Below are positions 25,799-46,780 of a stretch of DNA of 64,000 nucleotides, one piece after another. The stretch lies in NCBI RefSeq assembly GCF_003074135.1, contig NZ_PPDK01000001.1:558001-622000 (forward strand), in the 5' to 3' direction. The stretch's first letter is position 1. Every line of letters starts with the position of its first letter. The position numbers and the translations under genes were made by a program. The stretch comes from Euzebya tangerina (GTDB lineage: Bacteria; Actinomycetota; Nitriliruptoria; Euzebyales; Euzebyaceae). The notes below the pieces were generated by a model. That model saw only the letters and a list, made by a program, of their open reading frames with translations. It ran no database searches and had not been told where the DNA came from.

Positions 25799-27370
25799 TC
25801 ACTCACCGGCTGCGCGAGCCGCCACCCACTCGTCCAGGTCCATGACCTGTCCCGCAGGCTCTGAGGCGTCGACGTCGACGACGTAGTCGATGTCGAAGAG
25901 TCGGAGATCATCGATGTCGACCAGGTCCGCGTCGCCGATCTTGCCGAGGTAGGCGCAGTCGGCACGAACGCACACCGCCAGCGTCTCGGCCCAGGCGTCG
26001 GTGGCGACGACCCGTGCCCCGTCGAGTTGGGTGTGCTCGGCCGCGATCGCATCCAGCTCCTGATGGTCGCCGAGGCGTGTGAGCATGGCCTGACCCGACC
26101 CGAGCCACGACGTCGCGATCACGCCGGTCAGGAGTGTCATCGTCAGCGCGCGACGTCGTCGTTCTGCGTCCGCGGGAACCAGGCTGGCGCCGAAGGTCGC
26201 CACCAGGGTGAGCGCGATCATCGTGAACCAGAGATAGCGCTCGATGACCAGGACGACCGCATAGCCGGCCGTCGTGCCGGCGGCGAGCAGGACCACGGAG
26301 ACGAGCACCGGGGGGAGCCGTCTCCACGCCAACAGGACGGTGGCGGCAGCGAGCACCAGCGCGACGGGAACGCGTCTGCCCAGGCTGCCGAGGGCGACGC
26401 GGACGCTGTCGACCAATCGCTCGGGGCGGGTGCGCTGCTCTGCGGGCAGGTCCAGGTCCCCCGGCGGCGCCCACCGCGTGGCGTCGATGGTCTCCGTTGG
26501 GTCGTCCCACGCGCTGCGGGCGTCGTCGAACGGGAGCGGGTATAGGCCGGCATAGAGCAGGGGGTTCCCTCGTGAGCCGACCAGGTCATCGTTGAACCCG
26601 ACGGCCGTGGAGAAGGTGGGACGGTCGTAGGTGGCGGACAGGACGCCGATCCATGGTCCGGCGACGACGGCCAGGCCGACGAGGGCGGCCAGGAGACGTC
26701 GGACGGCCGTCGTCCGGCGGGTCACGGCGGCCACGAGCAGCACGAGGATCAGATGGCCGGTGATGAGCGGCAACGCCGCCGCCTTGCACAGGTAGGCGAT
26801 GCCGCCCAGTGCGCCCGCCGCGGCCAACCGTCGCGCTGATGCCTGCATCGGGTCCCCCAGGGCCAGGCAGTAGGCCAGCAACGCGGCGATGAGGAGCGTC
26901 TCCGGGTAAGCCCCGAAGCTCGCGCTCCAGACCGCGACCGGTGCCACCGCCAGCGTGCCCGCGCCCGCCCAGGCCGGTCGCAGGCCAGCCCGGTCCAGCA
27001 GTCGACGACTGATGACGACGACCAGGACGGCTGCCAGGCCGAGGACGACGCGGACGGCCACGAGTGGCTCGACGCCGATCCGGAGGACCGGAACGAGCAG
27101 CCAGGAGTACAGCGGACCCCAGTAGCCGCTGACGGCATCGTCGAAGGCTCCGGCGGCCCACTGGTCGGCCAGTGACAGGTATGCCGCACCGTCCGGGTTG
27201 AGGTACTCACCGGCGACGAGGCCGGCCGCGATGAGGGCTGCGAGTGTGACGAGCGGGGCCGTGCCCGGCGCCGCAACGACCCCTACCACACCGCCCCGAG
27301 GCACCACTGACCATCCCGCCGGTTGCGGTGCAGGGCCGAGCCGGCGATGCTCTGTGCTCAAGATCGCCAC
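25799..27370 (-). CDS. Integral membrane glycosyltransferase-like protein (GT-C fold)
   Basis: A 523-residue polytopic protein with about ten hydrophobic helices and a C-terminal non-membrane domain of about 110 residues. The first external loop has NPDGAAYLSLADQW, with Asp60 where GT-C enzymes of the ArnT/PMT type hold a catalytic acid, followed by GYWGPLYSWLL and GAYPETLLIA. Such enzymes use polyprenyl-phosphate sugars outside the membrane. It lies at the left edge of the glycan locus, so it may transfer a lipid-linked sugar to the glycan or wall. Membership is by pattern only, and the start could be at an internal codon. Confidence 0.65.
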   Translation of the reverse strand: MAILSTEHRRLGPAPQPAGWSVVPRGGVVGVVAAPGTAPLVTLAALIAAGLVAGEYLNPDGAAYLSLADQWAAGAFDDAVSGYWGPLYSWLLVPVLRIGVEPLVAVRVVLGLAAVLVVVISRRLLDRAGLRPAWAGAGTLAVAPVAVWSASFGAYPETLLIAALLAYCLALGDPMQASARRLAAAGALGGIAYLCKAAALPLITGHLILVLLVAAVTRRTTAVRRLLAALVGLAVVAGPWIGVLSATYDRPTFSTAVGFNDDLVGSRGNPLLYAGLYPLPFDDARSAWDDPTETIDATRWAPPGDLDLPAEQRTRPERLVDSVRVALGSLGRRVPVALVLAAATVLLAWRRLPPVLVSVVLLAAGTTAGYAVVLVIERYLWFTMIALTLVATFGASLVPADAERRRRALTMTLLTGVIATSWLGSGQAMLTRLGDHQELDAIAAEHTQLDGARVVATDAWAETLAVCVRADCAYLGKIGDADLVDIDDLRLFDIDYVVDVDASEPAGQVMDLDEWVAARAAGE

Positions 27371-27522
27371 GCTAGGGGTGTTCCGTCAGGGTCGCAAAGG
27401 ACCCTGCCGGACAGCGTCGGCCAGACCCGGGAGAGCACCGTCTGGCGTCACCGTTGGGCCTCCCACGCGTCGGAGTGCCCCTCCACTACGTTCAAATCCT
27501 TCCCCATCACAAGGATTCATCC

Positions 27523-28560
27523 ATGCGCCAGCACCTGGCCCCCGTCCGCAGCCGCATCGTGGACATGGGGTCCCGCCGTCCCCGTGTTGTCATCGCATCG
27601 CGTCAGGGTCGCGCCGGTCTCGAGCGACACGGTCTGTCCGACCTCGAGGCCGTTGCCGACCTGCGGTTCCTCAGCGCCGAGTCGACGATCCCGACCGAGG
27701 AGGCGATCTTCGGCCTCCGCGACGCGGAGATCGTGGCCGTCACACCACTGGTGTCCCCCGACTGGAACGACCGGCTGCTCGGTGCGCTTCCGAACTTGCG
27801 GGCGATCAGCCTCCACGCCACGGGTTATGACTTCATCGACATCGCCCGGCTGTCCGAGTACGACGTCAAGCTCACCGTTCTGGGGGAGTACTCCACACGC
27901 GCCGTCGCCGAACACACCATCGGGATGCTCCTGGCGTTGGCGCGCCGGATCCACTTGGCCAACGATCGGTCCCGCGGGCTGGTCGCCCACGAGGTCAGTC
28001 TTCGCGGCTTCGAGTTGGCCGGCCGGACACTCGGCGTCATCGGACTCGGACGAATCGGCTCCGTCGTCGCCCGCCTGGCCCTGGCCTTCGACATGGAGGT
28101 GGTGGCCACGGACCGGCACGAGCGGACCGTCGACGGGGTCACCATGGTCGACTTCGACGAGCTGCTCTCCCGATCGCACTGCGTCGCCATCACGGCGTCG
28201 ATGGACCATGACGCCCAGCCGATCATCGGTCGAGCCGAGCTGTCGCGGCTGCCGAAGGGCGCGGTCGTCGTGAACACCAGCCGGTCCGGCCTGGTCGACA
28301 CCGAGGCCATCGCGGGCGCTCTGCGGTCGCGGCACCTGCGTGGGTACGCCGTGGACGATGCCATCTTCGACCCCCTCGAGCACGGCGACCTGCTCAGGGA
28401 AGGGCGTGTCATGCAGACGGGTCACAGCGCCTGGTGGGCGGACGAAGCCCTGGATCGCGGGTCGCGCCACTGGGTCGAGAGTCTGTGCGCACTCGCGGAG
28501 GGTCGTCCTGTCCCGGTCATCGACGGCCGGCCCAGGTCTGCGGCCAGCAACACCGCCTGA
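27523..28560 (+). CDS. D-isomer-specific 2-hydroxyacid dehydrogenase
   Basis: A 345-residue NAD(P)-dependent dehydrogenase. The Rossmann motif GLGRIG is at residues 174-179 in LGVIGLGRIGSVVARLA, with Asp197 at the end of strand 2 favouring NAD. Catalytic residues are Arg254 (NTSRSGLVD) and His301 (TGHSAWW). The usual catalytic Glu of the DVFxxEP motif aligns with Asp283 (AIFDP), an atypical choice. The ATG at 27523 has AAGGA 7 nt upstream; an in-frame start at 27454 is less likely. It converges on wecB and may supply or remove a hydroxyacid for the neighbouring glycan pathway; the substrate is unknown. Confidence 0.88.
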   Translation: MRQHLAPVRSRIVDMGSRRPRVVIASRQGRAGLERHGLSDLEAVADLRFLSAESTIPTEEAIFGLRDAEIVAVTPLVSPDWNDRLLGALPNLRAISLHATGYDFIDIARLSEYDVKLTVLGEYSTRAVAEHTIGMLLALARRIHLANDRSRGLVAHEVSLRGFELAGRTLGVIGLGRIGSVVARLALAFDMEVVATDRHERTVDGVTMVDFDELLSRSHCVAITASMDHDAQPIIGRAELSRLPKGAVVVNTSRSGLVDTEAIAGALRSRHLRGYAVDDAIFDPLEHGDLLREGRVMQTGHSAWWADEALDRGSRHWVESLCALAEGRPVPVIDGRPRSAASNTA

Positions 28561-28589
28561 CGCGTGCGAGAGTCCTGACGCGGGCGAGG

Positions 28590-29729
28590 TCAGTCGGTCG
28601 GGTGCGGTGAGCCGTTGGCGACGAAGACCTCGATGGCATCCACGGTCCGCTGGGCTGCACGTCCGTCCCACAGCGCTGGTCGCCGCGGCTCGCCTGGGTT
28701 CTTCAGACGGGCCTCGATGACGGCGCGGACGACGGTTGGACGTGTTCCCGCGATCTGGTTGGTGCCGTCGGTCACCGTGATCGGCCGCTCCGTGCTCGGC
28801 CGAACGGTGACGCAGGGCACGCCGAGAGCGGTGGTCTCCTCCTGGATTCCGCCGGAGTCCGTCACCACGATCGTCGCGGCCGCCTGCAGCGCGAGGGAGT
28901 CGAGGTAGCCGACGGGCTCGAGCACCGTGAGTCGCGACACGGTCGACACCAGCGCGCTGTTCGGCGGCTGTGCAGCGACGATGGCCCGCACCCGCGGGTG
29001 CATCGGGAACACCACATCGCGACCTGCGGCCGCGTCGGCTACGGCCGCTAGCAGGTCGGCGAGGTGAGCCGGGTCATCGACGTTGGCCGGCCGGTGCATG
29101 GTCAACAGGACGAAGCCATCTGCCAATCCCAGGTCGGCCACCACGGGTCGGCGGACGGCCCGGTCGCGCTGCTGCAGCAGCGTGTCGATCATGACGTTGC
29201 CGACCAGATGGATCCGTGAGGCCGCCATCCCCTCGGCCCGCAGGTTATCCACCGCATCGGCCGACGGTGCGAACAGCAGGCTGGACAGGCGGTCCGTCAC
29301 GACGCGATTGACCTCCTCCGGCATGGCCCAGTCCCGGCTGCGCAGGCCGGCTTCCACATGACCGACCGGGATGGTCAGCTTCGCGGCCGTCAGCGCTGCC
29401 GCCACCGTGGAGTTGACGTCGCCCACGACGATCAGCACATCCGGCGACTCGGCTCTGAGGAGCGGGTCGAGCGCGAGCATGACGCCGGCCGTCTGCGCTG
29501 CGTGGCTTCCCGATCCCACGACCAGGTGGTGGTCGGGCTCAGCGATGCCCAGCTCGTCGAAGAAGACCTCGCTCATGGCATCGTCGTAGTGCTGACCGGT
29601 GTGGACCAGCGACGCCGCGTGCTCGCGCTCACGCAGCGCCCGGAGGACCGGTGCGACCTTCATGAAGTTCGGACGTGCTCCGGCGACGACCATCGTCGAC
29701 AGCCGCGACGCGGGCACTCGCCGGCTCAT
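28590..29729 (-). CDS. wecB: Non-hydrolysing UDP-N-acetylglucosamine 2-epimerase
   Basis: Converts UDP-GlcNAc to UDP-ManNAc for surface polysaccharides. The 379 residues start MSRRVPASRLSTMVVAGARPNFMKVAPV, the characteristic GxRPx(F/E)xK opening. GHVEAGLRSRD, MPEEVNRVVTDRLSSLLFAPS, TMHRPANVD and VTDSGGIQEETTALGVPCVTVRPSTERP are all intact, so it should be active. The ATG at 29729 overlaps the stop of the preceding GT2 gene (ATGA); the longer frame upstream is antiphase coding. Last gene of the six-gene leftward glycan operon. It implies a ManNAc-type sugar or derivative in the product. Confidence 0.95.
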   Translation of the reverse strand: MSRRVPASRLSTMVVAGARPNFMKVAPVLRALREREHAASLVHTGQHYDDAMSEVFFDELGIAEPDHHLVVGSGSHAAQTAGVMLALDPLLRAESPDVLIVVGDVNSTVAAALTAAKLTIPVGHVEAGLRSRDWAMPEEVNRVVTDRLSSLLFAPSADAVDNLRAEGMAASRIHLVGNVMIDTLLQQRDRAVRRPVVADLGLADGFVLLTMHRPANVDDPAHLADLLAAVADAAAGRDVVFPMHPRVRAIVAAQPPNSALVSTVSRLTVLEPVGYLDSLALQAAATIVVTDSGGIQEETTALGVPCVTVRPSTERPITVTDGTNQIAGTRPTVVRAVIEARLKNPGEPRRPALWDGRAAQRTVDAIEVFVANGSPHPTD

Positions 29730-30598
29730 GGCTGGCGCACGTGGTCGAGCGCCCTGGTCACCGTCGCGCGGGTCACGCCGACGGCCACTGCGGCCTGGCT
29801 GAGCACGACACGCGCGGACAGCCCCGCACCGCCGCTCCGCCAGGCCGTGCGGAGCATGCGTGCCCGGTCGGATGCCGACATGCGACGAGCGTCGGCAGCA
29901 TCGTCGTCGAGTGCGGCGGCGGCACGGCCGAACCGCTGGTGCTGCCGCCAGAAGCCACGCAGATCGAGCTGATGGGCATGCCGGACGACGGCGTCGGGGC
30001 ACCGCACGATCGCTCCACCGGCTGCGACGAACGCGGCTGCCAGTGCGCGGTCCTCTCCCGCGGGTCCGTCGAACGCCTCGTCGAAGCCGCCGATGTCGAC
30101 CAGTCGCTGTCGCGCGGCGGCTGCATTGTTCGATGTGACGAAGTTGGTTGCCACCTCCGCTGATTCGGCGATGAGCTCACTGGCTGCAGACCAGTCGTTG
30201 TCCGCGAGGACGTTGATGCAGCGACCTCCGAGGAGCGCATCCGGATGGGCGGCCGCACACCGGTCGAGGGCCATCAACCAGCCGGGGGCTGGCGCACAGT
30301 CATCATCGGTGAAGGCGATCCAGGTACCCCGACTGGCGCGCAGCCCGGTGTTCCTCGCCGCCGCGGGCCCTCGATTGACCTGCTGCTCCAGTCGAAGGTC
30401 GAGCAGCCCGGCGAACTCCAGGATGCGGTCGGCGTAGGGCTGTTCGCTGCCATCGTCGACGACGATGACCTCGAAGGACCCAGGTGCGGGATCCAGCCGG
30501 GTGAGCGCATCCAGCAGTCGGCAGATCTGCGCGGGACGATCCTTGGTCGGGACGACGACGGACCACCGGATGGGAGCGGCGGCGCTCAAGCCCGCCAT
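29726..30598 (-). CDS. Family 2 glycosyltransferase
   Basis: A 290-residue GT-A enzyme: nucleotide-sugar binding WSVVVPTKDRPAQICRLLDA, EVIVVDDGSE, the DxD-type metal site FTDDDCAPAPGW, and the acceptor-side GEDRALAAAFVAAGG with the catalytic acid. No transmembrane helix, though the C-terminal 60 residues are basic. Donor and acceptor are unknown. It overlaps the amidohydrolase gene by 13 bp upstream and wecB by 4 bp downstream, so it is in a tightly coupled operon. Confidence 0.9.
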   Translation of the reverse strand: MAGLSAAAPIRWSVVVPTKDRPAQICRLLDALTRLDPAPGSFEVIVVDDGSEQPYADRILEFAGLLDLRLEQQVNRGPAAARNTGLRASRGTWIAFTDDDCAPAPGWLMALDRCAAAHPDALLGGRCINVLADNDWSAASELIAESAEVATNFVTSNNAAAARQRLVDIGGFDEAFDGPAGEDRALAAAFVAAGGAIVRCPDAVVRHAHQLDLRGFWRQHQRFGRAAAALDDDAADARRMSASDRARMLRTAWRSGGAGLSARVVLSQAAVAVGVTRATVTRALDHVRQP

Positions 30599-31443
30599 CC
30601 GTCGGGACGGTCATCCGGGTCGATGCCGAAGAGCCGGCAGGGGGTGTACCACCCGATCTGCTCCAGGAGCGCGTCGTCCTGCACCGCGACACGGAGGTGA
30701 TGCCAGGCCACGAGCGGATGGGTGAGGGGCGCGTCGGAGCCGAACACCAGCTTCTCGCCGACCTTCTCGGCCGCGTAGGTGAGGAACGCCGCCAGCCACA
30801 CGCCGGAGGTGTCGAGGTACACCCGCTCGTGGCGGCGCGCGACCGTGACGGCCTGCACGAGTTCGTGGTCACCGGCCGGGAAGGCGCCGAGGTGTGCGAT
30901 GATCACAGGCCCGGTGGTCCGCGACACGACCTCGGACTCGATCCACTCGGCGGTCACGTGGATGCCGCCGTGGACGATGATCGGGAGGCCGAGCTCGTTG
31001 ATCCGGTTGAACGTCGCATCGTCGGGCAGACCGTCGAGGTGGGGCAGCAGCTTGACGCCGGCGAAGCGGGACAGGTCGCCGACATCGGGCCGTCGGATGC
31101 TGAGCTTGCCGCGCAGCTTGCGGCGGAGCTGCCAGAGCTGGTGTGTCGTCCACGGGATCTCCCCGCCCAGTCGGGCCACGGGGAGGACCGCCCCACCGGT
31201 ACCGGCAGCCCAGTCAGCCAACGCCTCGTTCGCCCGGAGGTAGGAGTCACGCAACGGCGGGAAGACACACGATCGGGCCACCCCGCCGGAGGCGATGATG
31301 GTCTCCCACTCCGAGGGCTGCATGTTGGGGTAGAAGAGCTCACCGGTGTCGCTCGGACCGACGTGGACGTGGACGTCGAACAGCGGCGTGGCCGGTGGTG
31401 CCAGGTCGGGACGGAGGACGGTGACGGCTGGCGGCTCAGACAT
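30586..31443 (-). CDS. Amidohydrolase_2 family metal-dependent hydrolase
   Basis: A 285-residue TIM-barrel protein of the amidohydrolase_2 (ACMSD-like) family. Metal ligands are His25 and His27 in DVHVHVG, a His in IVHGG, a His in IAHLG, and the Asp in FGSDAPLTHP. Relatives are decarboxylases and hydrolases of small carboxylated molecules; an enzyme of this type inside a glycosyltransferase operon is unusual and could trim or modify a sugar substituent. ATG at 31443 overlaps the GT4 stop by 8 bp; a frame 20 residues longer exists but lies inside the GT4 gene. Confidence 0.85.
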   Translation of the reverse strand: MSEPPAVTVLRPDLAPPATPLFDVHVHVGPSDTGELFYPNMQPSEWETIIASGGVARSCVFPPLRDSYLRANEALADWAAGTGGAVLPVARLGGEIPWTTHQLWQLRRKLRGKLSIRRPDVGDLSRFAGVKLLPHLDGLPDDATFNRINELGLPIIVHGGIHVTAEWIESEVVSRTTGPVIIAHLGAFPAGDHELVQAVTVARRHERVYLDTSGVWLAAFLTYAAEKVGEKLVFGSDAPLTHPLVAWHHLRVAVQDDALLEQIGWYTPCRLFGIDPDDRPDGWRA

Positions 31444-32626
31444 GGCTCGTCTCCCACCGTTTCGCCGCAGCACGGTAGACCTCCTCGTACCGCGGGATCT
31501 CACGTCTCCAGGACCGTTCGAGCTGCTCTGGCCGGCTACGGGGCAGGGGGTCGTCGACGGCGGCGGCGATGGCGGCGGCCAGCCCCTCGGTGGTCGGCGG
31601 GCAGAACCGGACAGCGGGATTGTCGCCCAGCAACTCGCGGAGTGCAGGAAGGTCGGTGGAGAGGACGGGAACGCCGCACGCCAGTGCCTCGAGCGGCTTC
31701 AGCGGCGTCGTGTCCTGGGCCACGGCTGCGTGGCGACGCGGCACGACGAACAGGTCGAGGTCTGCCAGCAGCTCCGGCATCTGGTGGTAGGGCACGAATC
31801 CGGGTAGCGAGAGCCACGACTCCGCAGAAAGGTCACGACGCAGCTGCTCGATGGCTGGCCACTCTCGTCCCGTTCCGGCCAGGACGACGTCGGGACGTGA
31901 TGCCTCCGGCAGTCGCGACCGGGCCAGGTCGAGCGCCCGCACCAGACCATCGAGTGCCTCGATCGGCTCGAAGCGGGTGGCGTACCCGATCCGCAACCGG
32001 CCGGCATCGGGTGCGGTCGCCGGCGGACGGAAGCGGGTGACGTCCACGGAGTTGCGCACGACGTGGACCTGGCTGATGCCCTGGCCACGGATGCGGCGGG
32101 CCAACCCCTGGGAGATGGTGACCACGGCATCGGCTTCCTGACAGCGGCGGTACTCGAGCTGGTTGTACCGAGGGCCGCGCACCGACCGGAACCAGGGATG
32201 ACGCCGATCCAGGTCGTAGTCGCCGTTGAAGCAGCGGACCTCATAGACCCAGGGGACCTCCAGTTCGGCGGCAGCATCGCGTGCAGCGGCCCCGATGACG
32301 TGGGGATGGTGGGCGTGGATGACGTCTGGCCGCCACGTCCGTCCCAGCGTCACGAGATCGTCGACCATGCTCCGGTGTGCGTGTGGCGCCAGGCCGATCC
32401 CGGGTCGCTCGATGACCAGCGCCTCACCGATCGGGATCTGCTCCGGACCCCACGCAGCCGTCCTGAACTGCGGGTCGACCGCGTCGGTGAATGGTGGGAA
32501 GGGCCCGACGGCGACACGGGTGTCGTAGCCGAGGTGGCGGCTCTGCGCGTCGACCAGACCCGAGGTTCGGACGGTGTATCCGTCGATGGCCGGCCAGCCG
32601 TAGTTGACGACGTGCAGGACCCTCAT
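31436..32626 (-). CDS. Family 4 glycosyltransferase
   Basis: A 396-residue GT-B enzyme. N-terminal domain starts MRVLHVVNYGWPAIDGYTVR, with DVIHAHHPHVIGAAA; the C-terminal donor domain shows IGYATRFEPIEALDGLVRAL, LFVVPRR and EALACGVPVLSTDLPALREL. It builds part of the glycan from an unknown nucleotide sugar. It is a paralogue-like counterpart of the GT4 at 36304 on the other arm of the locus (both start RVLHVV and share DLFVxPRR then PLKxLEA). Its stop overlaps the next gene by 8 bp and its start overlaps the ABC exporter gene by 4 bp. Confidence 0.9.
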   Translation of the reverse strand: MRVLHVVNYGWPAIDGYTVRTSGLVDAQSRHLGYDTRVAVGPFPPFTDAVDPQFRTAAWGPEQIPIGEALVIERPGIGLAPHAHRSMVDDLVTLGRTWRPDVIHAHHPHVIGAAARDAAAELEVPWVYEVRCFNGDYDLDRRHPWFRSVRGPRYNQLEYRRCQEADAVVTISQGLARRIRGQGISQVHVVRNSVDVTRFRPPATAPDAGRLRIGYATRFEPIEALDGLVRALDLARSRLPEASRPDVVLAGTGREWPAIEQLRRDLSAESWLSLPGFVPYHQMPELLADLDLFVVPRRHAAVAQDTTPLKPLEALACGVPVLSTDLPALRELLGDNPAVRFCPPTTEGLAAAIAAAVDDPLPRSRPEQLERSWRREIPRYEEVYRAAAKRWETSHV

Positions 32627-34311
32627 CGGTGCATCACCTCGCCGAAGGTGACCCGGTCGTCGGCCTCATCGACCCAAGGACAGCGGCGGTGGGAGATCAC
32701 CAGCGTCACCCTACGTCGACACCACTCCATCAGCGCAGCCTGCACTCGAGCCTCGCTCGGCATGTCCAAGGCCGACGTCGCTTCGTCGAAGATGACGAAC
32801 CCCGGGTTCCGGACCCAGGCCCTGGCCACCCCCACGAGTTGGGCCTGCCCGGAGGAGAGCCCGGTCCCGTTCGGTCCGATCAGCGGCGCAGCGAGGTCCA
32901 GCGGGTCACCGTCGAGCAGCCCGAAGAGGTCCTCGAGCGCCGCGAGGTCCAGCCGGTCCGTGGGGCGGAACAGATTGTCCAGGATGGATCCCTCCATCAG
33001 CGTCGGCCGGGATCCGATGTAGAGGCAGTCGGGACGCTGCCCTGGCTCGAGGCCGGTTCCATCGACGACCACCTGACCCGAACCTGGCTGCAGGATGCCG
33101 GCGAGCACCAGAGCCAGCGTGCTCTTGCCTGCGCCGCTGGCCCCGGTCATGGTCGTCACCGAGTCGGACCGCACCGTCAGTGACGCGTCCTGCAGGACGT
33201 CGTGCGTTCCGTCGTAGGAGAAGCTCAGCCCCACGCCCTCGACACGATCCTGGGGGCGCCGCACCAGGCCGTCATCGAGCCGAACAGGGTCGGCGTCCCA
33301 GTAGGCCAGCAGCCGACGCCCCGCCTTGGCGGTCTCGGCCGCACGATAGGAGAACTCACCCAACTGCTGCACGGCGACCAGCAACTGCGAGACGACGTAG
33401 AGGACGACGATGAGCTCGGCCACACCCAGCCCACCGCCGGAGAGTTCGGCAGCCCCGACCACGATCGTGATGAGGAAGGCAACACCGTTCAGGCCGAGCA
33501 GCGACGCCCGAAGGGTTGCGGTGATCCGCTCCTGCGCCAGGCTGACGTCGACGTAGGTGTGGTGTGCGCGGAGGAAGGTGTCGACGAAGCGTTCGCCCAA
33601 CCCCAACTGTCGCGCCAGGATGACACGCTCGACCTCCACCACCTCGCGGGCGCGCTGGGACAGGTCCGCAAGAGCCGCGAATCGATCTCCCGCGAGATCC
33701 AGGTGGCGACGCACCGACCGGGCCATGACCGTGCCGATGACCAGGGCCGCAAGCGCGAGGACCGCCAGGAGGGGAGGGCTCAACACAGCGGTGACGACCA
33801 CCGATGCCGCCATCCAGGCGCCGATGACCACGGTGCTCGCCACCAGGTCGACCCCGAACCGATAGGCGAAGTCGACGTCGGTCATCAGGATCTCTCTTAG
33901 TGCGGCCATGGGCACCGCCATGAGATCCTCGGCCGGAGCGCCGTTGATGCGCCGGGCCAGCCGGTCGACGGCACGCTGTCGACAGGCGAAGACGATGCGC
34001 TGCTGGGTGAGGTGCCGCTGCCGTGCAGCCGCGAAGGACCCGACCGCGGCCACCGCGGCGATGCCGACCCACGCCCACGCCACGCCCGGAGCCCCGTCCG
34101 TCGCTCGACCGATGAGCACACGTGCGGAGAGTGCGACGACGATCCCGGCACCGACCTCGGCCGCAGTCAGCGCGACGATGGTCCCGATCGCGCGACGAGC
34201 CTGCGGGACCTCCTCACGCAGTGCCAGCAGGATGATTCGCAGGTCCCCCAGGCTCGGTCTGCCGCGCAGCACCTCTTCGATGGTGATCGCTCGGCGTGAG
34301 GTGCGGTTCAC
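32623..34311 (-). CDS. ABC exporter, fused membrane and ATPase domains
   Basis: A 562-residue half-transporter: six helices in residues about 42-320, then the nucleotide-binding domain. Walker A GASGAGKST is at 390-398, the signature is LSSGQ (485-489), Walker B ends FVIFDEATSALD with Glu510, and the switch His is His541. The usual Q-loop Gln is replaced: the segment reads YIGSRPTLMEGSIL, so gating may differ. Flanked by a sulfotransferase and GT4, it probably acts as a homodimer flipping a lipid-linked glycan or exporting the polymer. Overlaps of 4 bp with both neighbours. Confidence 0.9.
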   Translation of the reverse strand: MNRTSRRAITIEEVLRGRPSLGDLRIILLALREEVPQARRAIGTIVALTAAEVGAGIVVALSARVLIGRATDGAPGVAWAWVGIAAVAAVGSFAAARQRHLTQQRIVFACRQRAVDRLARRINGAPAEDLMAVPMAALREILMTDVDFAYRFGVDLVASTVVIGAWMAASVVVTAVLSPPLLAVLALAALVIGTVMARSVRRHLDLAGDRFAALADLSQRAREVVEVERVILARQLGLGERFVDTFLRAHHTYVDVSLAQERITATLRASLLGLNGVAFLITIVVGAAELSGGGLGVAELIVVLYVVSQLLVAVQQLGEFSYRAAETAKAGRRLLAYWDADPVRLDDGLVRRPQDRVEGVGLSFSYDGTHDVLQDASLTVRSDSVTTMTGASGAGKSTLALVLAGILQPGSGQVVVDGTGLEPGQRPDCLYIGSRPTLMEGSILDNLFRPTDRLDLAALEDLFGLLDGDPLDLAAPLIGPNGTGLSSGQAQLVGVARAWVRNPGFVIFDEATSALDMPSEARVQAALMEWCRRRVTLVISHRRCPWVDEADDRVTFGEVMHR

Positions 34312-35138
34312 AGTTGCTCAGCCCAGTGATCATCGGTCGTGTAGCCCCAGTGCCGACAAGCGCTCAGCACCTCGGGAGCCCGTCGGACGACCTCCCGCAT
34401 TCGCTCCCGGTGGGACGCTGCGGCCCATCTGCCGGTCGGGGGCGGCTGGAGCGGACGCACACCGCCCAGGGCGCCGACGTCGATGGCAGGCAGCTCGGTC
34501 GAGGCACGGGCTCGCTCGTGGAACCGCTCGAAGGGGATGGAGAGCGACCAGCCGAGCTCGGCACCGAGCCGAGCCTCGACGTCCGAGGGCTGGCCGGTGA
34601 GCTCTTCGTACGACACGACCACGACGTCGGGGTCCGCCTCGATCGCGCGGATACGCCGATGCACGTCCTGCCAACGCTCGATCTCGCAGTAGTAGCCCCG
34701 GCTGGGCGGGTAGCCCTTGTGGGTGGACGTGAGCACCTCACGCGGGTCCCGCACGGTGACGAGGAACACGGCCCGGCCCGGGTTGCGGGTGTACCAGCAG
34801 CGGACATCGTCGACGGCGGTGATGTCAGCTGGGCGCTTGGTCAACAACCAGCGGTGGTTGCGGTTGGCGAACTGCGCAGCCCACCGCGCCTCCACCTCAC
34901 CGACGAAGGAGCAGACGTCGTGGACGCAGGCGTCCACCACCAGCTGCAGCAGCGTGGATCCCGAGCGCGGAAAGCCACAGATGACGAGATGGGCGTCGAG
35001 GGGGGTGGTCCCGGGCAGGCCGCGATCGACGGCGGCGCGGAGCAGTCGCTTGGCCACCCGTCGGTGGACTGGTGTGGGGGGCGCCACCCCGACCGGTCCC
35101 GCGTCCGTCGCCCGTAGATCACCCGGCCACTCACCCAT
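34308..35138 (-). CDS. Sulfotransferase (PAPS-dependent)
   Basis: A 276-residue sulfotransferase fold. The 5'-phosphosulfate loop is CGFPRSGSTLL (residues about 54-64) and the 3'-phosphate site is VTVRDPREVLTSTHKG, both diagnostic. It should transfer sulfate from PAPS to a hydroxyl or amine of a sugar or lipid. It is the first gene of the six-gene leftward operon (sulfotransferase, ABC, GT4, amidohydrolase, GT2, wecB) and thus points to a sulfated surface glycan. The first 45 residues are poorly conserved in look, so the true start may be slightly internal. Confidence 0.9.
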   Translation of the reverse strand: MGEWPGDLRATDAGPVGVAPPTPVHRRVAKRLLRAAVDRGLPGTTPLDAHLVICGFPRSGSTLLQLVVDACVHDVCSFVGEVEARWAAQFANRNHRWLLTKRPADITAVDDVRCWYTRNPGRAVFLVTVRDPREVLTSTHKGYPPSRGYYCEIERWQDVHRRIRAIEADPDVVVVSYEELTGQPSDVEARLGAELGWSLSIPFERFHERARASTELPAIDVGALGGVRPLQPPPTGRWAAASHRERMREVVRRAPEVLSACRHWGYTTDDHWAEQL

Positions 35139-35251
35139 CTAGTGGTCTCCAACGACCCGCGACGCCAGCCTCCGCTGACCGGCGAGGCGTGGCGGTGGGC
35201 AGCGGCATCGGCGAGGCGCTGATCATGCGGACCAGTAGGTTACCGTCCGCC

Positions 35252-36307
35252 ATGGCCGCTCCCCGACCCACCCCGATCAACGACGCTGCCGCCCCTGCGC
35301 CGGCCCTGATCTCTCCCGACCGGACCGGTGCCGTGGCTCGTGCGGTGTCCGGCGTCGTCCGCGTGACCGATGATGTGCTCGTCAGGGCGACGGGCCGCCG
35401 TCCCCTCGCCTCAGCGTTGATCGATCGGACCCTGTGGGGTCCGCTCCAACGGGGCGAGCCCGTGATCCGGCCCGCCCGGCCGCTGCTCGGGCTGTCGTTC
35501 GACTGCGACTACCAGGAGGACACCGATGCGCTCCCGCTGCTCGGGGAGGTGCTGGCCGAGGTCGGCGTCACCGCGAGCATCTGCGCCATCGGCAAGCTCG
35601 TGGAGCGCGACCCGAATCCGTATGGTGCGCTGGTGGCCGCTGGCCACGAGTTGGTGAACCACACCCACACGCACCCGGACAATCCGGTGCTGAACCCCGA
35701 CCGGGAGTTCTGGGATCTCTCGGAGGCCGAGATGGCCGAGGAGATCGGCACGGCCCAGGACGCCTTCGAACGGCAGGTGGGAATCCGTCCGACGGGCTTC
35801 CGCTCGCCGCACTTCAAGGACGCACACCGCATGCTCGCCGCGATCGAGCGGTTCGAGGAGATGGCGTATCTGAGCACGGTGCTGCAGGGCAAGACCCCCA
35901 GCGGTCTGCCCTACCGACCGGCACGTGACGCTGCCGTCCTGTCTGACCGCTCACACTTCGTCAGCTCACCGGACCCCGCAGGCAACTCCCGACTGGTCCA
36001 GCTGCCGCTCACACCATGTCCGGACCACCGGTGGTCGCCGCTGTGCTCCTACCACACGATCCGTCGTCCGCGGCTTGACGCCACCGGGCAGGGCATGCAT
36101 CCGGCCGAGCAGTTCCCGCAGCTGTGGGAGCGGATGCTCGACCGGGCCGCGTCCGACCGCTACGCACTCGTCTACTTCGACCCCAAGGACGTGGCCGGAT
36201 CCGCCGAGGCCGCCAGCGTGTTCGGCGAGATGCTCCGCATTGCCGTCGCAGCGGGTTGGCAGGTCACGACGATGGCTGCCGTGGCAGACCTCTGGCCTCT
36301 GCCGTGA
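35252..36307 (+). CDS. Polysaccharide deacetylase (NodB homology domain)
   Basis: A 351-residue carbohydrate esterase family 4 protein without a clear signal peptide. Motifs: LSFDCDYQED (metal and catalytic Asp), HTHTHPDNP (His metal ligands), TGFRSPHFKD (catalytic Arg), and a late VYFDPKD. It would remove acetyl groups from GlcNAc-like residues. It opens the rightward glycan operon, divergent from the sulfotransferase. A TAGGTT box at 35237-35242, 10 nt before the ATG at 35252, favours that start; another ATG at 35225 is possible. It ends in GTGA, overlapping the next start. Confidence 0.85.
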   Translation: MAAPRPTPINDAAAPAPALISPDRTGAVARAVSGVVRVTDDVLVRATGRRPLASALIDRTLWGPLQRGEPVIRPARPLLGLSFDCDYQEDTDALPLLGEVLAEVGVTASICAIGKLVERDPNPYGALVAAGHELVNHTHTHPDNPVLNPDREFWDLSEAEMAEEIGTAQDAFERQVGIRPTGFRSPHFKDAHRMLAAIERFEEMAYLSTVLQGKTPSGLPYRPARDAAVLSDRSHFVSSPDPAGNSRLVQLPLTPCPDHRWSPLCSYHTIRRPRLDATGQGMHPAEQFPQLWERMLDRAASDRYALVYFDPKDVAGSAEAASVFGEMLRIAVAAGWQVTTMAAVADLWPLP

Positions 36308-37503
36308 CCACCAACCGCGTCCTGCACGTGGTGGAGAGCTGGCCCCCGGTCCCCTCGGGCTACGCCCGGCGCAGTCACGCGCTGGTCGCTGCGCAGTCCC
36401 GCCAGGCGGCCATCGATCCCGCTGTCCTCGTGACCTCCCGTCAGTGGGTCTACACCGACGACGTGACCAGCACGCCGGACCACGACCTCGTCGTCTGCCG
36501 GTCGTCGCCGAGCGAAGATCGGTGGCGTCGCATCCGGCCCTTCCACGTCGATGTCGCGCGACTACGAGACGAGGTCGTGTCGGCAGCCAGGGCTCACGAT
36601 GCGACGATCGTGCACGTGCACTGGTCCAGTGGGATCGGTCGGGCCGCAGCCATGGCAGCGACGAGGCTGGGGCTGCCCCTGGTGGCCGAGGTGCGCTTCG
36701 ACCTCGCCGGCGCTGTCGTGGCCCAGGGAGCGGTGACGCCGGAGGTCATCGAGTCCGCCCTTCGACGCCGCTTCGAGTCCCACCTCGACGACGCGGCGGT
36801 GGTGATCGCTGCCTCGCATCCGACCGCCGAACTCGTGCGACGGACCACAGGCCTCGCCGTCGAGGTCGTGGAGAACGCGGTCGAACCGGGGGGCTTCGAG
36901 GCCCCCGACGGGGCGGGCGCTGCAGAGCGCCAGGACCTCGGCATACGGCCTGAGCGGGTCGTTGTCGGCTCCACCGCCAAGCAGTTGCGCTACGAGGGCC
37001 TGGATCTGCTGCTCAGCGCTGCCGCGGCCTGCGAGTCCCCGCCGGTCGTCCTGTTGATCGGCACCGGTCCGGAGGCGTCTCGCCTGCGCCGGGAAGCGGC
37101 GACGACCGGCATCGACGTCCGGCTCACGGGTGCGGTGCCGGCCGCCAGGATTCCGGGTCTGCTTGCTGCCATGGATCTCTTCGTGGCCCCTCGACGCGAC
37201 ACGTCCATCACGCGCTGGGCCAGCCCCCTCAAGGTCCTCGAGGCCATGGACGCCGGCGTGGCCGTCGTCGGCAGTGCGGTCGGCGACATTCCGCGCCTCC
37301 TCGCAGGTGGACGGGGGTTCATCGTGGCAGCTGGTGCCGTGCACGAGCTAACGGCCGTGCTCGACGAGGCGATGACGCGACCCGACCTGCGTCAGGGTCG
37401 TGCGACCGCCGCCCAGGCCTGGATTCGTCAGCAGGGTGACTGGGACGCCGCCGCCGCCCGATACGCCGAGATCTACCGCACGGTGCCGCGCGTCCAGCGT
37501 TGA
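36304..37503 (+). CDS. Family 4 glycosyltransferase
   Basis: A 399-residue GT-B enzyme starting at a GTG that overlaps the deacetylase stop (GTGA). N-terminal NRVLHVVESWPPVPSGYARR, donor domain VGSTAKQLRYEGLDLLLSAA, LLIGTGPEASRLRREA, LFVAPRRD and SPLKVLEAMDAGVAVVGSAVG. Similar in plan to the GT4 at 31436 on the opposite arm. The activity (sugar and linkage) cannot be assigned. The next gene starts 66 bp downstream on the same strand. Confidence 0.9.
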   Translation: MTTNRVLHVVESWPPVPSGYARRSHALVAAQSRQAAIDPAVLVTSRQWVYTDDVTSTPDHDLVVCRSSPSEDRWRRIRPFHVDVARLRDEVVSAARAHDATIVHVHWSSGIGRAAAMAATRLGLPLVAEVRFDLAGAVVAQGAVTPEVIESALRRRFESHLDDAAVVIAASHPTAELVRRTTGLAVEVVENAVEPGGFEAPDGAGAAERQDLGIRPERVVVGSTAKQLRYEGLDLLLSAAAACESPPVVLLIGTGPEASRLRREAATTGIDVRLTGAVPAARIPGLLAAMDLFVAPRRDTSITRWASPLKVLEAMDAGVAVVGSAVGDIPRLLAGGRGFIVAAGAVHELTAVLDEAMTRPDLRQGRATAAQAWIRQQGDWDAAAARYAEIYRTVPRVQR

Positions 37504-37569
37504 TGTCCTCGCCGGCTCCGAACACCGGTCGGCAGATTCAGATTGGCACGACGGGGTAAGGCCAGGTGT

Positions 37570-38628
37570 GTGCCGACGCCATCGCCCGCCGTAGTTGACA
37601 CACCAGCACCGCCCGATCGACGACCCCGCATCGCAGTCGTCATGCCGGCCCATCGCGCCGGACCAGAACTCGACATGTGCCTGGCACACCTGCACGCGCT
37701 CGACCCCGCGCCCGATGAGATCCGCATCGCGGTCGATGGTGCCAACTCCGCCGTCGTCCACGCCGCGGCCCGGGTCACCAACCGGATTGTGACGCTCCCG
37801 CAGCAGTCAGGACCTGCCGCGGCACGCAACCTGGCCGCGTCCGGGTCGAGCGCCGACGTGCTGCTGTTCGTCGACGCAGACGTGGCGGTCCCACGCGATC
37901 TCGTCGCCCGTGTCGCCGCGGCGTTCTCCGACGATCCCACGCTGGATGCCCTGGTGGGGAGCTACGACGCCGCACCGACCGCTCCCAACCTGCTCTCCCA
38001 GTACAAGAACCTGCAGCACCACTACACCCACCAGCACGCGTCTGAGGATGCCCAGACGTTCTGGGGTGCGTGTGGGGCCATCCGTCGCCAGATCTTCGAG
38101 TCCCTCGACGGCTTCGACGCCGAGCGCTACCGGCATCCTTCCGTGGAGGACATCGAGCTCGGCTACCGGCTCCACGCGGCCGGGGGGCGCATCCGGCTGG
38201 ACCCCTCCATCCAGGTCACGCACCTCAAGACCTGGCGGGCGTGGGACCTCCTCCGCACCGAGGTGCTGCGGCGGGCGATCCCGTGGAGTCGGCTCATGCT
38301 GGAACGAGGTGAGCTCCAGTCCGACCTCGGCGTCGGAGCGGCAGGCCGTGCCAGGGTGGGCGCCGCCTGGGTGCTGACACTCAGCGCTCCGGCCGCGCTC
38401 CGCTCACGCCAAGCACGCCGCATCGCGGCCGCGGCCGTGCTGGCCCTGGTGGGGCTGGACTGGCAGCTGGCCCGATTCCTCTCCGCTCACCTCTCGCCGA
38501 CCAGGCTCGCCGCCAGCCTGGCGTGGCACTGGTTCGCCCATCTCTACAGCGGAGTCGGGTTTGCCTGGGCGGTGGGCGAACGCCTGTGGGGAGCAACCCA
38601 ATCGACGTCCGGACGCCGCAGTGGGTGA
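37570..38628 (+). CDS. Family 2 glycosyltransferase with C-terminal membrane segment
   Basis: A 352-residue GT-A enzyme: RIAVVMPAHRAGPELDMCL, LLFVDADVAVPRDLV (DxD), WGACGAIRRQIFESLDGFD, and HPSVEDIELGYRLHAAG (ED acid). Two hydrophobic segments near residues 265-285 and 310-335 should anchor it to the inner leaflet, suggesting lipid-linked or processive synthesis. The GTG at 37570 was chosen (AAGG upstream); a TTG at 37543 is an alternative. It precedes a second GT2 with a 37-bp gap (or an overlap if that gene starts at 38621). Confidence 0.87.
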   Translation: MPTPSPAVVDTPAPPDRRPRIAVVMPAHRAGPELDMCLAHLHALDPAPDEIRIAVDGANSAVVHAAARVTNRIVTLPQQSGPAAARNLAASGSSADVLLFVDADVAVPRDLVARVAAAFSDDPTLDALVGSYDAAPTAPNLLSQYKNLQHHYTHQHASEDAQTFWGACGAIRRQIFESLDGFDAERYRHPSVEDIELGYRLHAAGGRIRLDPSIQVTHLKTWRAWDLLRTEVLRRAIPWSRLMLERGELQSDLGVGAAGRARVGAAWVLTLSAPAALRSRQARRIAAAAVLALVGLDWQLARFLSAHLSPTRLAASLAWHWFAHLYSGVGFAWAVGERLWGATQSTSGRRSG

Positions 38629-38665
38629 GTCCGCGGACCGTCGTCCGGCGAGGCTCGAGGAGTCC

Positions 38666-39571
38666 GTGATCGTCGACCGACGCACAGACCGACCTCCGGT
38701 GCAGGCACCCGACGTGTCGGTCATCATCCCGACGCGAAACCGGCCGCAGTGGCTGGGACGATGCCTGACCGCACTGGCTGACGCGACGGCGCCCTCCACG
38801 AGCGTGGAGGTCATCGTGGTCGACGACGCGGGCGAGCACCCCCTGGCCCCCGTGCTCGATCGGGTGAGCGACGGGTTGGACATCACGCTCCTGCGCCGGC
38901 CCTCCAGCGGAGGTGCATCGCTGGCATGCAACACGGGGGCATCGTTTGCCCGAGGCGAGGTCCTGGCATTCACCAGTGCCGACTGTGCACCACAACGCGG
39001 GTGGGTCGAGGCCCTCAATCTTGCGGCCACCCAGTACCCGGGCAGCCTGATCGCCGGTCGGACGGAGACGGCGAAGACGGCCCACCGGTGGGTCCTGGTG
39101 AGCGACGCCATCACCCAACACCTGCAGCGCTGGTCGGCCGTCCACAACGTCCCACCGTTTGCTCCGATCCACAACATGGCCCTTCCCCGCCGACGGTTCG
39201 AGGCGATCGGCGGCTTCGCCGGGACCGCTGACACGCCCCGCGGCGAGGACCGCGACCTGGTGGCGCGGTGGGCCGAGAAGGGCTGGGAGACTGCCGTCGC
39301 CGAGCAGGCACTGGTGGTCCACGACCGGGACCTCTCCTACCGCGACTTCCTTCGGCAACACCATCGATATGGCCGTGCGAGCTTCCACTTCTCCGAACAG
39401 CTTCGACGGCGCCAGCAGGACCCCCGACTCTTCAAGGGCATCTGGTTCTACCTGGTGATGCTCTACCGTGCGTATCGGGCCGCCGGATGGCTGGGACTGC
39501 CGGCCGTCGCCGTGGCCCAGATCGCCACCGCGGTCGGCTACCTGCGGGAGCGTGTCTCGCAACGGACCTGA
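38666..39571 (+). CDS. Family 2 glycosyltransferase
   Basis: A 301-residue GT-A enzyme with VSVIIPTRNRPQWLGRCLTA, EVIVVDDAGEHP, FTSADCAPQRGW in place of the usual DxD run, and TPRGEDRDLVARWAEKGWE with the catalytic acid. It resembles the GT2 at 29726 in length and motif spacing, so each arm of the locus carries a GT4 and a GT2 of the same kinds. GTG at 38666 follows GAGGAG but with short spacing; GTG at 38621, overlapping the preceding stop, is equally possible. Confidence 0.87.
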   Translation: MIVDRRTDRPPVQAPDVSVIIPTRNRPQWLGRCLTALADATAPSTSVEVIVVDDAGEHPLAPVLDRVSDGLDITLLRRPSSGGASLACNTGASFARGEVLAFTSADCAPQRGWVEALNLAATQYPGSLIAGRTETAKTAHRWVLVSDAITQHLQRWSAVHNVPPFAPIHNMALPRRRFEAIGGFAGTADTPRGEDRDLVARWAEKGWETAVAEQALVVHDRDLSYRDFLRQHHRYGRASFHFSEQLRRRQQDPRLFKGIWFYLVMLYRAYRAAGWLGLPAVAVAQIATAVGYLRERVSQRT

Positions 39572-39664
39572 CCGGCCACGATGGCCTCCGCTGTGGCAAG
39601 GTCCCGCGCCGATAGGGTCGTGTGGACGTCCTTCCCGTGGGACCGACGCCGACCGGAGGATGGC

Positions 39665-41248
39665 GTGCCGAACAAGACGAGAACTGCCGCCGTGATCGGG
39701 GCCGGGCCCGCCGGCCTGACGGCCGCCCACGAACTGCTCTCGCGGACGGACGTGGTGCCCGTGGTGTTCGAGGCGACCGACCGCATCGGGGGCATCTCCT
39801 GCACGGTCGAGCACAACGGCAATCGGCTCGACATCGGCGGCCACCGCTTCTTCTCCAAGTCCGATCGGGTCATGTCGTGGTGGCTGGAGCGAATGCCGCT
39901 GCAGAAGCTTCCCGAGGACCACATCGACATCGCCTACCAGGGTCAGCAGCGCGGTCTTGCCGTTCCCGACGCCGGGGTGGATCCGCACACGACGGACCGC
40001 GTCATGCTGCTTCGAGAGCGGACGTCGCGGATCTTCTGGCATGACCGGCTCTTCGAGTATCCCCTCAGTCTGAGCGGGTCGACGATGCGAAACCTCGGGC
40101 CGGAACGGCTCTTCCGGTCGGCGGTGAGCTATCTGCGGTCCATGTCAGCACCCATCCGGGATGAGGACACCCTCGAGGACTTCTTGATCAACCGGTTCGG
40201 CCGTGAGCTCTACCAGACCTTCTTCCAGAGCTACACCGAGAAGGTCTGGGGCGTGGCCTGCGACGAGATCCCCGCGGAGTGGGGTGCGCAGCGCATCAAG
40301 GGACTGAGCATCCGGAAGGCACTGCTGCACGCGGTCGACAAGGCCCGCGGCGGCGTCGCCTCGGATGCGGTCGCGCAGCGGGAGGTCGAGACGTCACTCA
40401 TCGAGCGGTTCCTCTACCCCAAGTTCGGGCCCGGCCAGATGTGGGAGGTCGTGGCCCAGGAGGTCCGCGATCGTGGCGGCGAGGTCCTGATGAACCAGCG
40501 GGTGGTGGGCGTCCGGACGACCGAGGGACACGTCACCGCCGTCGTCTCGGCGGACACCCGAACCGGGGAGCAGACGACCACCGCGGTCGACATGGCGGTG
40601 TCGTCGATGCCGATCCCCGCACTGGTGGACGCCATCGACATCGCGGCACCACGCTCAGTTGCGGACGTCGCCCGGGGCCTGCCCTTCCGTGACTTCTTCA
40701 CCGTGGGACTGTTGGTCGACGGCCTGCGGCTGCCGCCAGCACCCGGCGACGACCTGATCAAGGACAACTGGATCTACATCCAGGAACCCGGGGTGCAGAT
40801 CGGGCGCCTGCAGATCTTCAACAACTGGAGTCCGTGGATGGTGGCTGACCCGTCCACGGTGTGGCTGGGGCTGGAGTACTTCTGCTACGACACCGATCCG
40901 ATCTGGCGTCAGCCCGATGCGGAGCTGACCAGGCTGGGCGTCACGGAGCTGAGCAAGATCGGCATCATCGAGCGCGAGTCGGTCCTCGACAGCTGTGTCG
41001 TCCGGGTCCCCAAGACCTACCCCGCCTACTTCGGCAGCTATGGCGACTTCGACGTGGTGCGGGGGTGGCTGCAGGAGATCCCGAACCTGCACTGCGTCGG
41101 CCGCAACGGTCAGCACCGCTACAACAACCAGGACCACTCGATGCTGACGGCCATGCTGATGGTCGATCAGCTGACCGGCGAGGACCCGACAGCAGACATC
41201 TGGGACGTCAACACCGAAGAGGAGTACCACGAGCAGCGCTCGTCATGA
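39665..41248 (+). CDS. FAD-dependent oxidoreductase, Glf/HemY-like
   Basis: A 527-residue flavoprotein: the dinucleotide-binding GAGPAG (12-17), an Arg/Gly motif [10 protein letters not shown], then the [18 protein letters not shown] stretch characteristic of a family found in polysaccharide clusters and related to UDP-galactopyranose mutase and protoporphyrinogen oxidase. It may rearrange or oxidise a sugar, but this group is not canonical Glf. GTG at 39665 follows GGAGGA. Last gene of the rightward glycan operon; it overlaps the convergent DMT gene by 6 bp. Confidence 0.85.
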
Positions 41249-43776: not shown

Positions 43777-44541
43777 TCAGGCGGAGCGGCGGGCCGCCGC
43801 ACCGGACCGCGGGTCGAAGCCGAGCGGGAGCTCCAGCCGGTTGGCGTGCAGCAGCGCCTCGTCCGACAGCACCTCGACCACGGCGTCGTCCGCCACCACC
43901 CGCCCATCGTTGACCACAACAGCGCGGTCGCAGAGTTCCAGCGCGAACGGCAGGTCGTGCGTGATCAACACCTGGGTGATGTCGAGGGAGTCCAGGACCG
44001 CGGCGACCTCGCGTCGGCCGGCCGGGTCGAGGCCGGACGTGGGCTCATCGAGGACGAGCACGTCCGGCCGCATGGCCAGAACCGTCGCGAGCGCCACCCG
44101 ACGTCGCTCGCCACCGCTGAGGTGGTGGGGCGTTCGGTCGATCAGCGCTAGGGCGCCGACCTGCTCCAGGGCCTCGGCCACTCGCTGGTCCAACGCCGCG
44201 CCCTCGACGCCGAGGTTGGCGGGTCCGAACTCGACGTCCTCTCGGACGGTGCCCATGAACAGCTGGTCGTCGGTGTTCTGGAACACCAGGCCGACCCGCC
44301 GCCGGATGTCCCGAAGGTTCCGGTCGGTGACGGCGAGTCCGGAGACGTGGACCGAGCCCTCCTGGACCTCGTGGATTCCGTTGAGGTGCAGCGCCAACGT
44401 GGTCTTCCCGGCCCCGTTCGGGCCCAGCAGCGCCACCCGTTCACCCTCTTCGATGGAGAGGTCGACCCCGTCCAGCGCCGTGTGGCCATCGGGGTAGGTG
44501 AACCGCAAGCCGGTCACCAGGAGCGTCGGGGTCGCGGTCAC
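43777..44541 (-). CDS. cbiO: ECF metal transporter ATPase CbiO/NikO-type
   Basis: A 254-residue energy-coupling ATPase: Walker A GPNGAGKTT, Q-loop VFQNTDDQLFMGTV (the QNxDDQLF form is typical of ECF ATPases), signature LSGGERRRVALA, Walker B VLVLDEPTSGLDPAG. It drives uptake of cobalt or nickel with CbiQ and CbiM. The GTG at 44541 overlaps the cbiQ stop (GTGA). It is the last gene of fur-cbiM-cbiQ-cbiO. A single ATPase gene implies a homodimer. Confidence 0.93.
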   Translation of the reverse strand: MTATPTLLVTGLRFTYPDGHTALDGVDLSIEEGERVALLGPNGAGKTTLALHLNGIHEVQEGSVHVSGLAVTDRNLRDIRRRVGLVFQNTDDQLFMGTVREDVEFGPANLGVEGAALDQRVAEALEQVGALALIDRTPHHLSGGERRRVALATVLAMRPDVLVLDEPTSGLDPAGRREVAAVLDSLDITQVLITHDLPFALELCDRAVVVNDGRVVADDAVVEVLSDEALLHANRLELPLGFDPRSGAAARRSA

Positions 44542-45302: not shown

Positions 45303-45313
45303 GTGTGCGGGCC

Positions 45314-46327: not shown

Positions 46328-46357
46328 GGGCCGCAGCTTACTGCGACCTGTTCGCAA

Positions 46358-46780
46358 TTACGAGGCAACGACGCACCGCGTGCACAGGCCAGTGACGATC
46401 AGCTCCACCTGTTCGGCTTGGAACCCATGCCCCGCAAGGTGGTCCGTCACCGCCTGAACCAGGCTGCCGCGGTGGTGGTCGACGGTGCCGCACGCCCGGC
46501 ACACCATGTGGAAGTGCTCGTCAGGATGCGCGATCTCCCAGCGCGCACCACCGTCGCCGAGCTGGCTCTGTCGGGCGATGCCGAGCTCCTCGAACAGCCC
46601 CAGGGACCGGTAGACCGATGCCACGTTGACCGTCGGGTCGATGGCCTCGACGTGGCCGGCCAGCTCCTCCGCGGTGAGGTGCCCATCGGATTCGGTCAGC
46701 GCGCGCCAGACAGCCAACCGGGGCCCGGTGACCCGGTGTCCCTCGGACCGCAGGGCGGACTCCACGTCGGATGCGCTCAC
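46358..46780 (-). CDS. Fur-family metalloregulator
   Basis: A 140-residue regulator: winged helix in residues 10-80 (VNVASVYRSLGLFEELG is the DNA-recognition region) and a dimer domain with HPDEHFHMVC (His85, His89, His91), structural zinc pairs Cys94-x2-Cys97 and Cys133-x2-Cys136, and His102/His103. The set resembles Fur/Zur/Nur members; by position it should sense the metal imported by cbiMQO and repress that operon. The GTG start lies 6 nt after TAGGGT, so the operon mRNA is probably leaderless. Confidence 0.9.
   Translation of the reverse strand: MSASDVESALRSEGHRVTGPRLAVWRALTESDGHLTAEELAGHVEAIDPTVNVASVYRSLGLFEELGIARQSQLGDGGARWEIAHPDEHFHMVCRACGTVDHHRGSLVQAVTDHLAGHGFQAEQVELIVTGLCTRCVVAS

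Follow-up and report, generated by a model that had tools for sequence, protein, structure and literature searches.

Few sulfated bacterial polysaccharides are known, most of them from cyanobacteria and from certain marine bacteria. The Synechocystis xss cluster gathers many glycosyltransferase (GT) genes together with sulfotransferase genes, and its exopolysaccharide, synechan, has been shown to be sulfated (PMC8205485). For an actinomycete, the wps-1 locus of Actinoplanes missouriensis is predicted to make a sulfated exopolysaccharide, with sulfation unproven there (PMC13390465). Here we describe a locus at positions 25,799 to 41,248 of a 64,000-nucleotide stretch (the window) of Euzebya tangerina, a member of the Nitriliruptoria (NZ_PPDK01000001.1, positions 558,001 to 622,000, forward strand). 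Its genes make it probable that this is a genome-variable cell-surface glycan locus, whose product would likely contain a furanose and an N-acetylmannosamine (ManNAc)-type sugar, be sulfated in the cytoplasm and be exported by an ATP-binding cassette (ABC) protein.

The locus is built differently from the described ones. The Synechocystis cluster has genes for Wzx, Wzy and a co-polymerase, whereas the Euzebya locus, known from its genes alone, has instead an MsbA/CydD-type ABC protein, a deacetylase, WecB and an enzyme resembling UDP-galactopyranose mutase (UGM) (PMC8205485). The wps-1 locus likewise belongs to the Wzx/Wzy/Wzz type; its sulfotransferases are of two other families, it also has a GH26 and a GT26, and the accessible part of its description mentions neither a UGM-like enzyme nor an ABC exporter (PMC13390465). 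We found no Wzx, Wzy or Wzz among the proteins of our locus, a search that did not extend to the remaining genome. In a glycan locus of the Roseobacter litoralis plasmid pRLO149_63 (L044), a sulfotransferase homologous to ours (25% identity over 229 amino acids) stands amid GT4 and GT2 genes, an MsbA-like ABC gene and a bifunctional gene for synthesis of 3′-phosphoadenosine-5′-phosphosulfate (PAPS). That locus also has a second sulfotransferase of a different family and, unlike ours, a sugar transferase, a chain-length determinant, an O-antigen ligase and an export protein; no homologue of the UGM-like enzyme or its partner GT2b was detected in it. Two other kinds of locus were tried and rejected. 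For a Nod-factor locus (nodABC, nodH), NodC scored at most 27 bits against 550 and no locus protein has an acyltransferase domain (NodA); for an XrtA/PEP-CTERM exopolysaccharide locus, TIGR04063 gave 158-167 against 442 and TIGR03006 25 against 276, with no exosortase among the locus proteins. The statement of the initial annotation that no described system has this gene set holds for the exact set within the literature we searched, though its elements, taken singly, all belong to known kinds.

Genes were called by codon statistics, starts were refined by start-codon inspection, and domains were assigned by Pfam and NCBIfam profile searches. The locus comprises 13 intact-looking genes:

25,799..27,370, minus strand: U523, GT-C-like integral membrane protein; no Pfam or NCBIfam family, many hydrophobic segments
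27,523..28,560, plus strand: HDH, 2-hydroxyacid dehydrogenase of a distinct subfamily; PF02826, 132 bits
28,590..29,729, minus strand: WecB, non-hydrolysing UDP-GlcNAc 2-epimerase (predicted UDP-ManNAc supply); TIGR00236, 309 bits, cut-off 210; start at 29,729
29,726..30,598, minus strand: GT2a, GT2 glycosyltransferase, MftF/EpsD-like; PF00535
30,586..31,443, minus strand: AmH, Amidohydro_2 protein; PF04909, 57 bits, cut-off 26; HxH, H, H, D metal motifs
31,436..32,626, minus strand: GT4a, GT4 glycosyltransferase; PF13692/PF13439
32,623..34,311, minus strand: ABC exporter, full-length, divergent CydD/MsbA-like; PF00005 (ABC_tran), 68 bits
34,308..35,138, minus strand: ST, PAPS-type sulfotransferase; PF13469 (Sulfotransfer_3), 40.6 bits, cut-off 27; FPRSGST and RDP...S
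35,225..36,307, plus strand: NodB-type (CE4) deacetylase; PF01522 (Polysacc_deac_1), 55 bits, cut-off 23
36,304..37,503, plus strand: GT4b, GT4 glycosyltransferase; PF13692; 29% identical to GT4a (paralogy)
37,570..38,628, plus strand: GT2b, GT2 glycosyltransferase of a conserved subfamily paired with a UGM-like enzyme; by homologue comparison
38,621 (or 38,666)..39,571, plus strand: GT2c, GT2 glycosyltransferase; PF00535; 35% identical to GT2a (paralogy)
39,665..41,248, plus strand: UGM-like flavoenzyme, probable sugar-nucleotide pyranose/furanose mutase; NF005546, 749 bits, cut-off 418

Two divergent blocks make up most of the locus. The leftward one runs from ST (35,138) to WecB (28,590) and consists of six overlapping genes, with overlaps of 4 bp (ST/ABC), 4 bp (ABC/GT4a), 8 bp (GT4a/AmH), 13 bp (AmH/GT2a) and 4 bp (GT2a/WecB). 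The rightward one has five genes, from the deacetylase to the flavoenzyme (about 35,225 to 41,248), of which the first two overlap by 4 bp. Since the genes look intact and their GC content and codon use match those of the remaining window, these open reading frames are not chance readings. The initial annotation had named a PAPS sulfotransferase, an ABC exporter, two GT4 and three GT2 enzymes, WecB, a NodB-type deacetylase, an amidohydrolase and a flavoenzyme, with six leftward genes overlapping. Profile searches recovered every one of these classes and start-codon inspection bore out the overlaps; what it had overlooked was the HDH gene on the plus strand and the GT-C-like nature of U523.

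The core of the locus recurs in other genera. Four independent whole-genome searches of G032, a genome of the same class, placed the best matches of HDH, U523, the flavoenzyme and GT2b within a single stretch of about 16 kb (C1:812,820-829,010, on a 3.98-Mb contig). This stretch, whose genes we called with window codon usage, also holds a GT2a relative (44% identity), an MsbA-like ABC gene and a GT4 gene. A second class genome, G041, repeats the cluster on two contigs, with most genes 59-76% identical to those of G032; there, relatives of the leftward genes GT2a (39%) and ABC share one contig with relatives of the rightward genes GT2b and flavoenzyme. Parts of the core extend to other phyla. 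On the Methylomagnum plasmid pRS11DPr2, a GT2a relative of 43% identity and an MsbA-like ABC gene come after adjacent GT2b and flavoenzyme genes, and Gloeothece Cy782203 has the flavoenzyme close to a GT2a relative (39%) and to a Sulfotransfer_2 protein, which belongs to a different sulfotransferase family from that of the window. Independent occurrence of the two operons in relatives had been put forward as evidence against a joint locus; in the relatives examined, leftward and rightward genes instead cluster together in G032 and G041. GT2a, GT2b, the flavoenzyme, an ABC gene and the HDH/GT-C pair thus form a coherent unit. The G032 and G041 clusters differ from ours in carrying Gfo/Idh/MocA, NDP-sugar epimerase, methyltransferase and GMC oxidoreductase genes, and their annotated proteins include no sulfotransferase or NodB. 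A literature search found no description of this cluster. The proposed search for the same gene set in other genomes therefore yielded the core, in other genera and partly in other phyla, but not the sulfotransferase and NodB, for which the 295 other phylum genomes sampled gave no relatives.

Within this core, the flavoenzyme and GT2b form a pair that recurs across phyla. A profile of the flavoenzyme family (A2, ten members) gave 20 best PDB matches that were all UGMs, with E values down to 1e-36. Judged by the substrate and FAD contact residues of AfUGM (PMC3624792), the window enzyme keeps the equivalents of H63, Y317, R327, Y419, R447, Y453, N457 and Q458. It differs from known UGMs in belonging to a distinct family, NF005546, titled "hypothetical protein" in NCBIfam, in scoring 26 bits against the curated cut-off of 303.75 for the bacterial Glf equivalog (TIGR00031), and in one replaced contact, considered below. 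The initial annotation had called the enzyme Glf/HemY-like; its family is UGM-like, whereas as a HemY-type protoporphyrinogen oxidase it scored 30 bits with TIGR00562 (cut-off 97.85), and we rejected that assignment. It is probably a pyranose/furanose mutase acting on a sugar nucleotide. GT2b has homologues of 45-47% identity in G032, G058 and G041, the three strongest in the class, and further ones in G010 and G016. Outside the class, homologues of the same 45-47% identity occur on plasmids of Gloeothece verrucosa (Cy782201) and Methylomagnum ishizawai (two plasmids), each adjoining a flavoenzyme relative of 38-41% identity. The adjacency on these plasmids of a cyanobacterium and a gammaproteobacterial methanotroph (L097, L098, L099) suggests a conserved, uncharacterized enzyme pair.

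The HDH and U523 genes are a divergent pair conserved within the class. Among 65 other class genomes, U523 homologues were found only in G032, G041 and G058, and HDH matches at E < 1e-95 in exactly the same three; two such sets of three would coincide by chance with a probability of about 2e-5. These strongest HDH homologues (52-54% identity) lie directly beside the U523 relative in all three genomes. The alignment of U523 relatives has the conserved motifs DG..Y and YW.P..SW, the best PDB profile match is a GPI mannosyltransferase (a weak E of 0.44), and a distant relative in G092, elsewhere in the phylum (E 6.8e-11), matches PMT_2. On this basis U523 may be a polyprenyl-phosphate-sugar-dependent GT-C-type glycosyltransferase. 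Two more paralogues of U523, 33% identical to that of the window, occur in different surroundings in G032 (L058:9258-10973, L059:8935-10551). The HDH subfamily carries the motif GYAVDD...EGR...TGHSAWW, whose unusual C-terminal part (TGHSAWW and variants) is found in the window protein and at L068:8377-9426, L069:1742-2713 and L070:9289-10242. Remoter HDH members in G009, G020 and G021 directly adjoin a protein of 225-258 amino acids without a Pfam family, and these proteins are mutually homologous (41-89%). Plasmid searches with U523 and HDH gave no match.

The sulfotransferase has both signatures of a PAPS-dependent enzyme, a P-loop-like 5′-phosphosulfate motif (FPRSGST) and a 3′-phosphate motif (RDPREVLTS). 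Two strong adenosine 5′-phosphosulfate (APS) kinase matches in the same genome make a supply of PAPS plausible. The deacetylase has the features of a CE4 NodB enzyme, namely FDCD (a variant of motif 1), NHTHTHP and FRSPHF, and no evident signal peptide. Searches of 295 other phylum genomes gave no relative of either protein, and a scan of viral sequences gave no match to the sulfotransferase. In a scan of named genomes, the only deacetylase relatives were in two Latescibacterota metagenome-assembled genomes (30-32%), one of them near GT4, asparagine synthase and methyltransferase genes. The amidohydrolase gave weak partial matches in two of the 295 genomes and in one class genome, and none in a plasmid search. 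Sulfation and deacetylation of the product are plausible from domain content and operon overlap. The earlier prediction of a sulfated, partly deacetylated, ManNAc-containing surface product thus divides: surface-glycan assembly is well supported, and the named modifications fit the domains but are not backed by conservation.

The ABC protein retains Walker A, signature and Walker B motifs. Like PglK, MsbA and CydD, it joins membrane and ATPase parts in one protein, and it sits in a glycosyltransferase operon; it differs from them in that all equivalog scores fall far under their cut-offs (CydD 146 against 435 bits, MsbA 128 against 602, and PglK, NF050066, 71 against 1000). A PglK-like flippase function is possible, and the protein appears analogous to the ABC proteins of the related clusters. 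Its conservation is uninformative, as all 61 genomes searched hold many paralogues at similar score.

Taken together, the genes suggest the following pathway. WecB would supply UDP-ManNAc, and the UGM-like flavoenzyme would make a sugar nucleotide in furanose form (UDP-Galf or a related one), the furanose then being transferred by its partner GT2b. GT4a, GT4b, GT2a and GT2c would attach the remaining sugars on a lipid carrier at the cytoplasmic side. Before export, the deacetylase may trim the lipid-linked glycan and the sulfotransferase may sulfate it, with PAPS coming from elsewhere in the genome; the MsbA/CydD-type protein would then flip it, and U523 would add a sugar or transfer the glycan on the outer side. 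HDH probably provides a small acid substituent, although its role and that of the amidohydrolase are guesses. The furanose is suggested by the enzyme family and ManNAc by WecB; the enzymatic steps, the sulfation, the cell-surface location and the nature of the product as polymer or glycolipid we likewise infer from the gene content.

Several observations weigh against this pathway. The locus contains no initiating phosphoglycosyltransferase, Wzx, Wzy, Wzz or ligase, for which the remaining genome was not searched. The sulfotransferase, the deacetylase and the amidohydrolase do not recur with the core, so that what places them in a shared pathway is position and overlap. The equivalent of Arg182 in AfUGM is Lys in most of the flavoenzyme family and Gln in the window protein. 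The window ABC protein is not the best-hit orthologue of those in G032 and G041. Finally, single-sequence models of U523 (AlphaFold2) and the amidohydrolase had a predicted local distance difference test (pLDDT) score of 43 and 39, respectively, too poor for a structure search. The missing polymerization genes fit another product, a fixed-length sulfated oligosaccharide on a lipid, or a secreted small glycoside, which the MsbA-like ABC protein would export in one piece. The locus lacks Wzy, Wzz and a ligase and has a single MsbA/CydD-type exporter, and GT2b scores weakly for GT21/HpnI-like families, which glycosylate lipids; this is a real but lesser possibility. However, polymerases may lie elsewhere in the genome, and the related plasmid loci of Gloeothece (Cy782201) and Methylomagnum (pRS11DPr1) have a separate ABC permease and ATPase pair beside many GTs, which is usual for polysaccharides.

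The glycan might instead be placed on S-layer or cell-wall proteins with U523 as the transferase, as its distant PMT_2-matching relative and two CWB2-domain proteins encoded within 20 kb (7,720-10,833 and 46,917-48,323) could indicate. We regard this as unlikely: the locus has no recognized oligosaccharyltransferase, unrelated genes separate the CWB2 genes from it, and GT-C enzymes glycosylate polymers and lipids too. That the leftward (ST-ABC-GT4-AmH-GT2-WecB) and rightward (NodB-GT4-GT2-GT2-flavoenzyme) blocks are independent neighbors with separate products is slightly less likely still. In its favor, the GT pairs are paralogous, and the sulfotransferase, NodB and amidohydrolase have no conserved partners; but G032, one G041 contig and Methylomagnum pRS11DPr2 each carry relatives from both sides (GT2a and ABC; GT2b and flavoenzyme). 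Specialized-metabolite clusters also include sulfotransferases, deacetylases, amidohydrolases and hydroxyacid dehydrogenases, and the domain content of the window by itself would allow an aminoglycoside- or nucleoside-like compound rather than a surface structure. We give this very little credence, since a set of five GTs with WecB, a UGM-like and a GT-C-like protein suits surface glycans better and no aminocyclitol, polyketide synthase or nonribosomal peptide synthetase genes were found in the locus. A surface-glycan locus, probably with a furanose-forming core, is the reading that we retain.

Surface-glycan loci often vary in presence between congeners, and this one does. At the thresholds used, three congeners have no homologue of U523, HDH, GT2b or the flavoenzyme. 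One of them, G001, keeps the sugar-ABC/LacI and gltD/gltB blocks in synteny with the window; the interval holds about 8 kb of other genes there, against about 23 kb, locus included, in the window. Codon use and GC content give no support to a recent horizontal import, although the congeners are without the locus. The variable interval from the LacI/sugar-ABC block to gltD spans 25,193-48,386 in the window (L088 in G001). It includes, next to the locus, a 480-amino-acid protein without a Pfam or NCBIfam family (42,331-43,773), then CbiMQ and ABC genes for cobalt-type uptake with a Fur-family regulator (43,777-46,780). The two CWB2 cell-wall-binding proteins, both on the plus strand, are possible glycan-bearing surface proteins.

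The GT2b/UGM-like pair, found in three phyla, is a concrete uncharacterized enzyme pair, with a predicted reaction of sugar-nucleotide ring contraction followed by transfer. More speculatively, this pair, usually with further GTs and an ABC gene, may be a cross-phylum module that makes a furanose surface glycan, of which the actinobacterial version would carry sulfate and be N-deacetylated in part, giving a sulfated bacterial polymer of non-Wzx/Wzy type from outside the cyanobacteria. We put this forward tentatively. A predicted actinobacterial sulfated polysaccharide with export of the ABC type, not the Wzx/Wzy type, would widen the known set.

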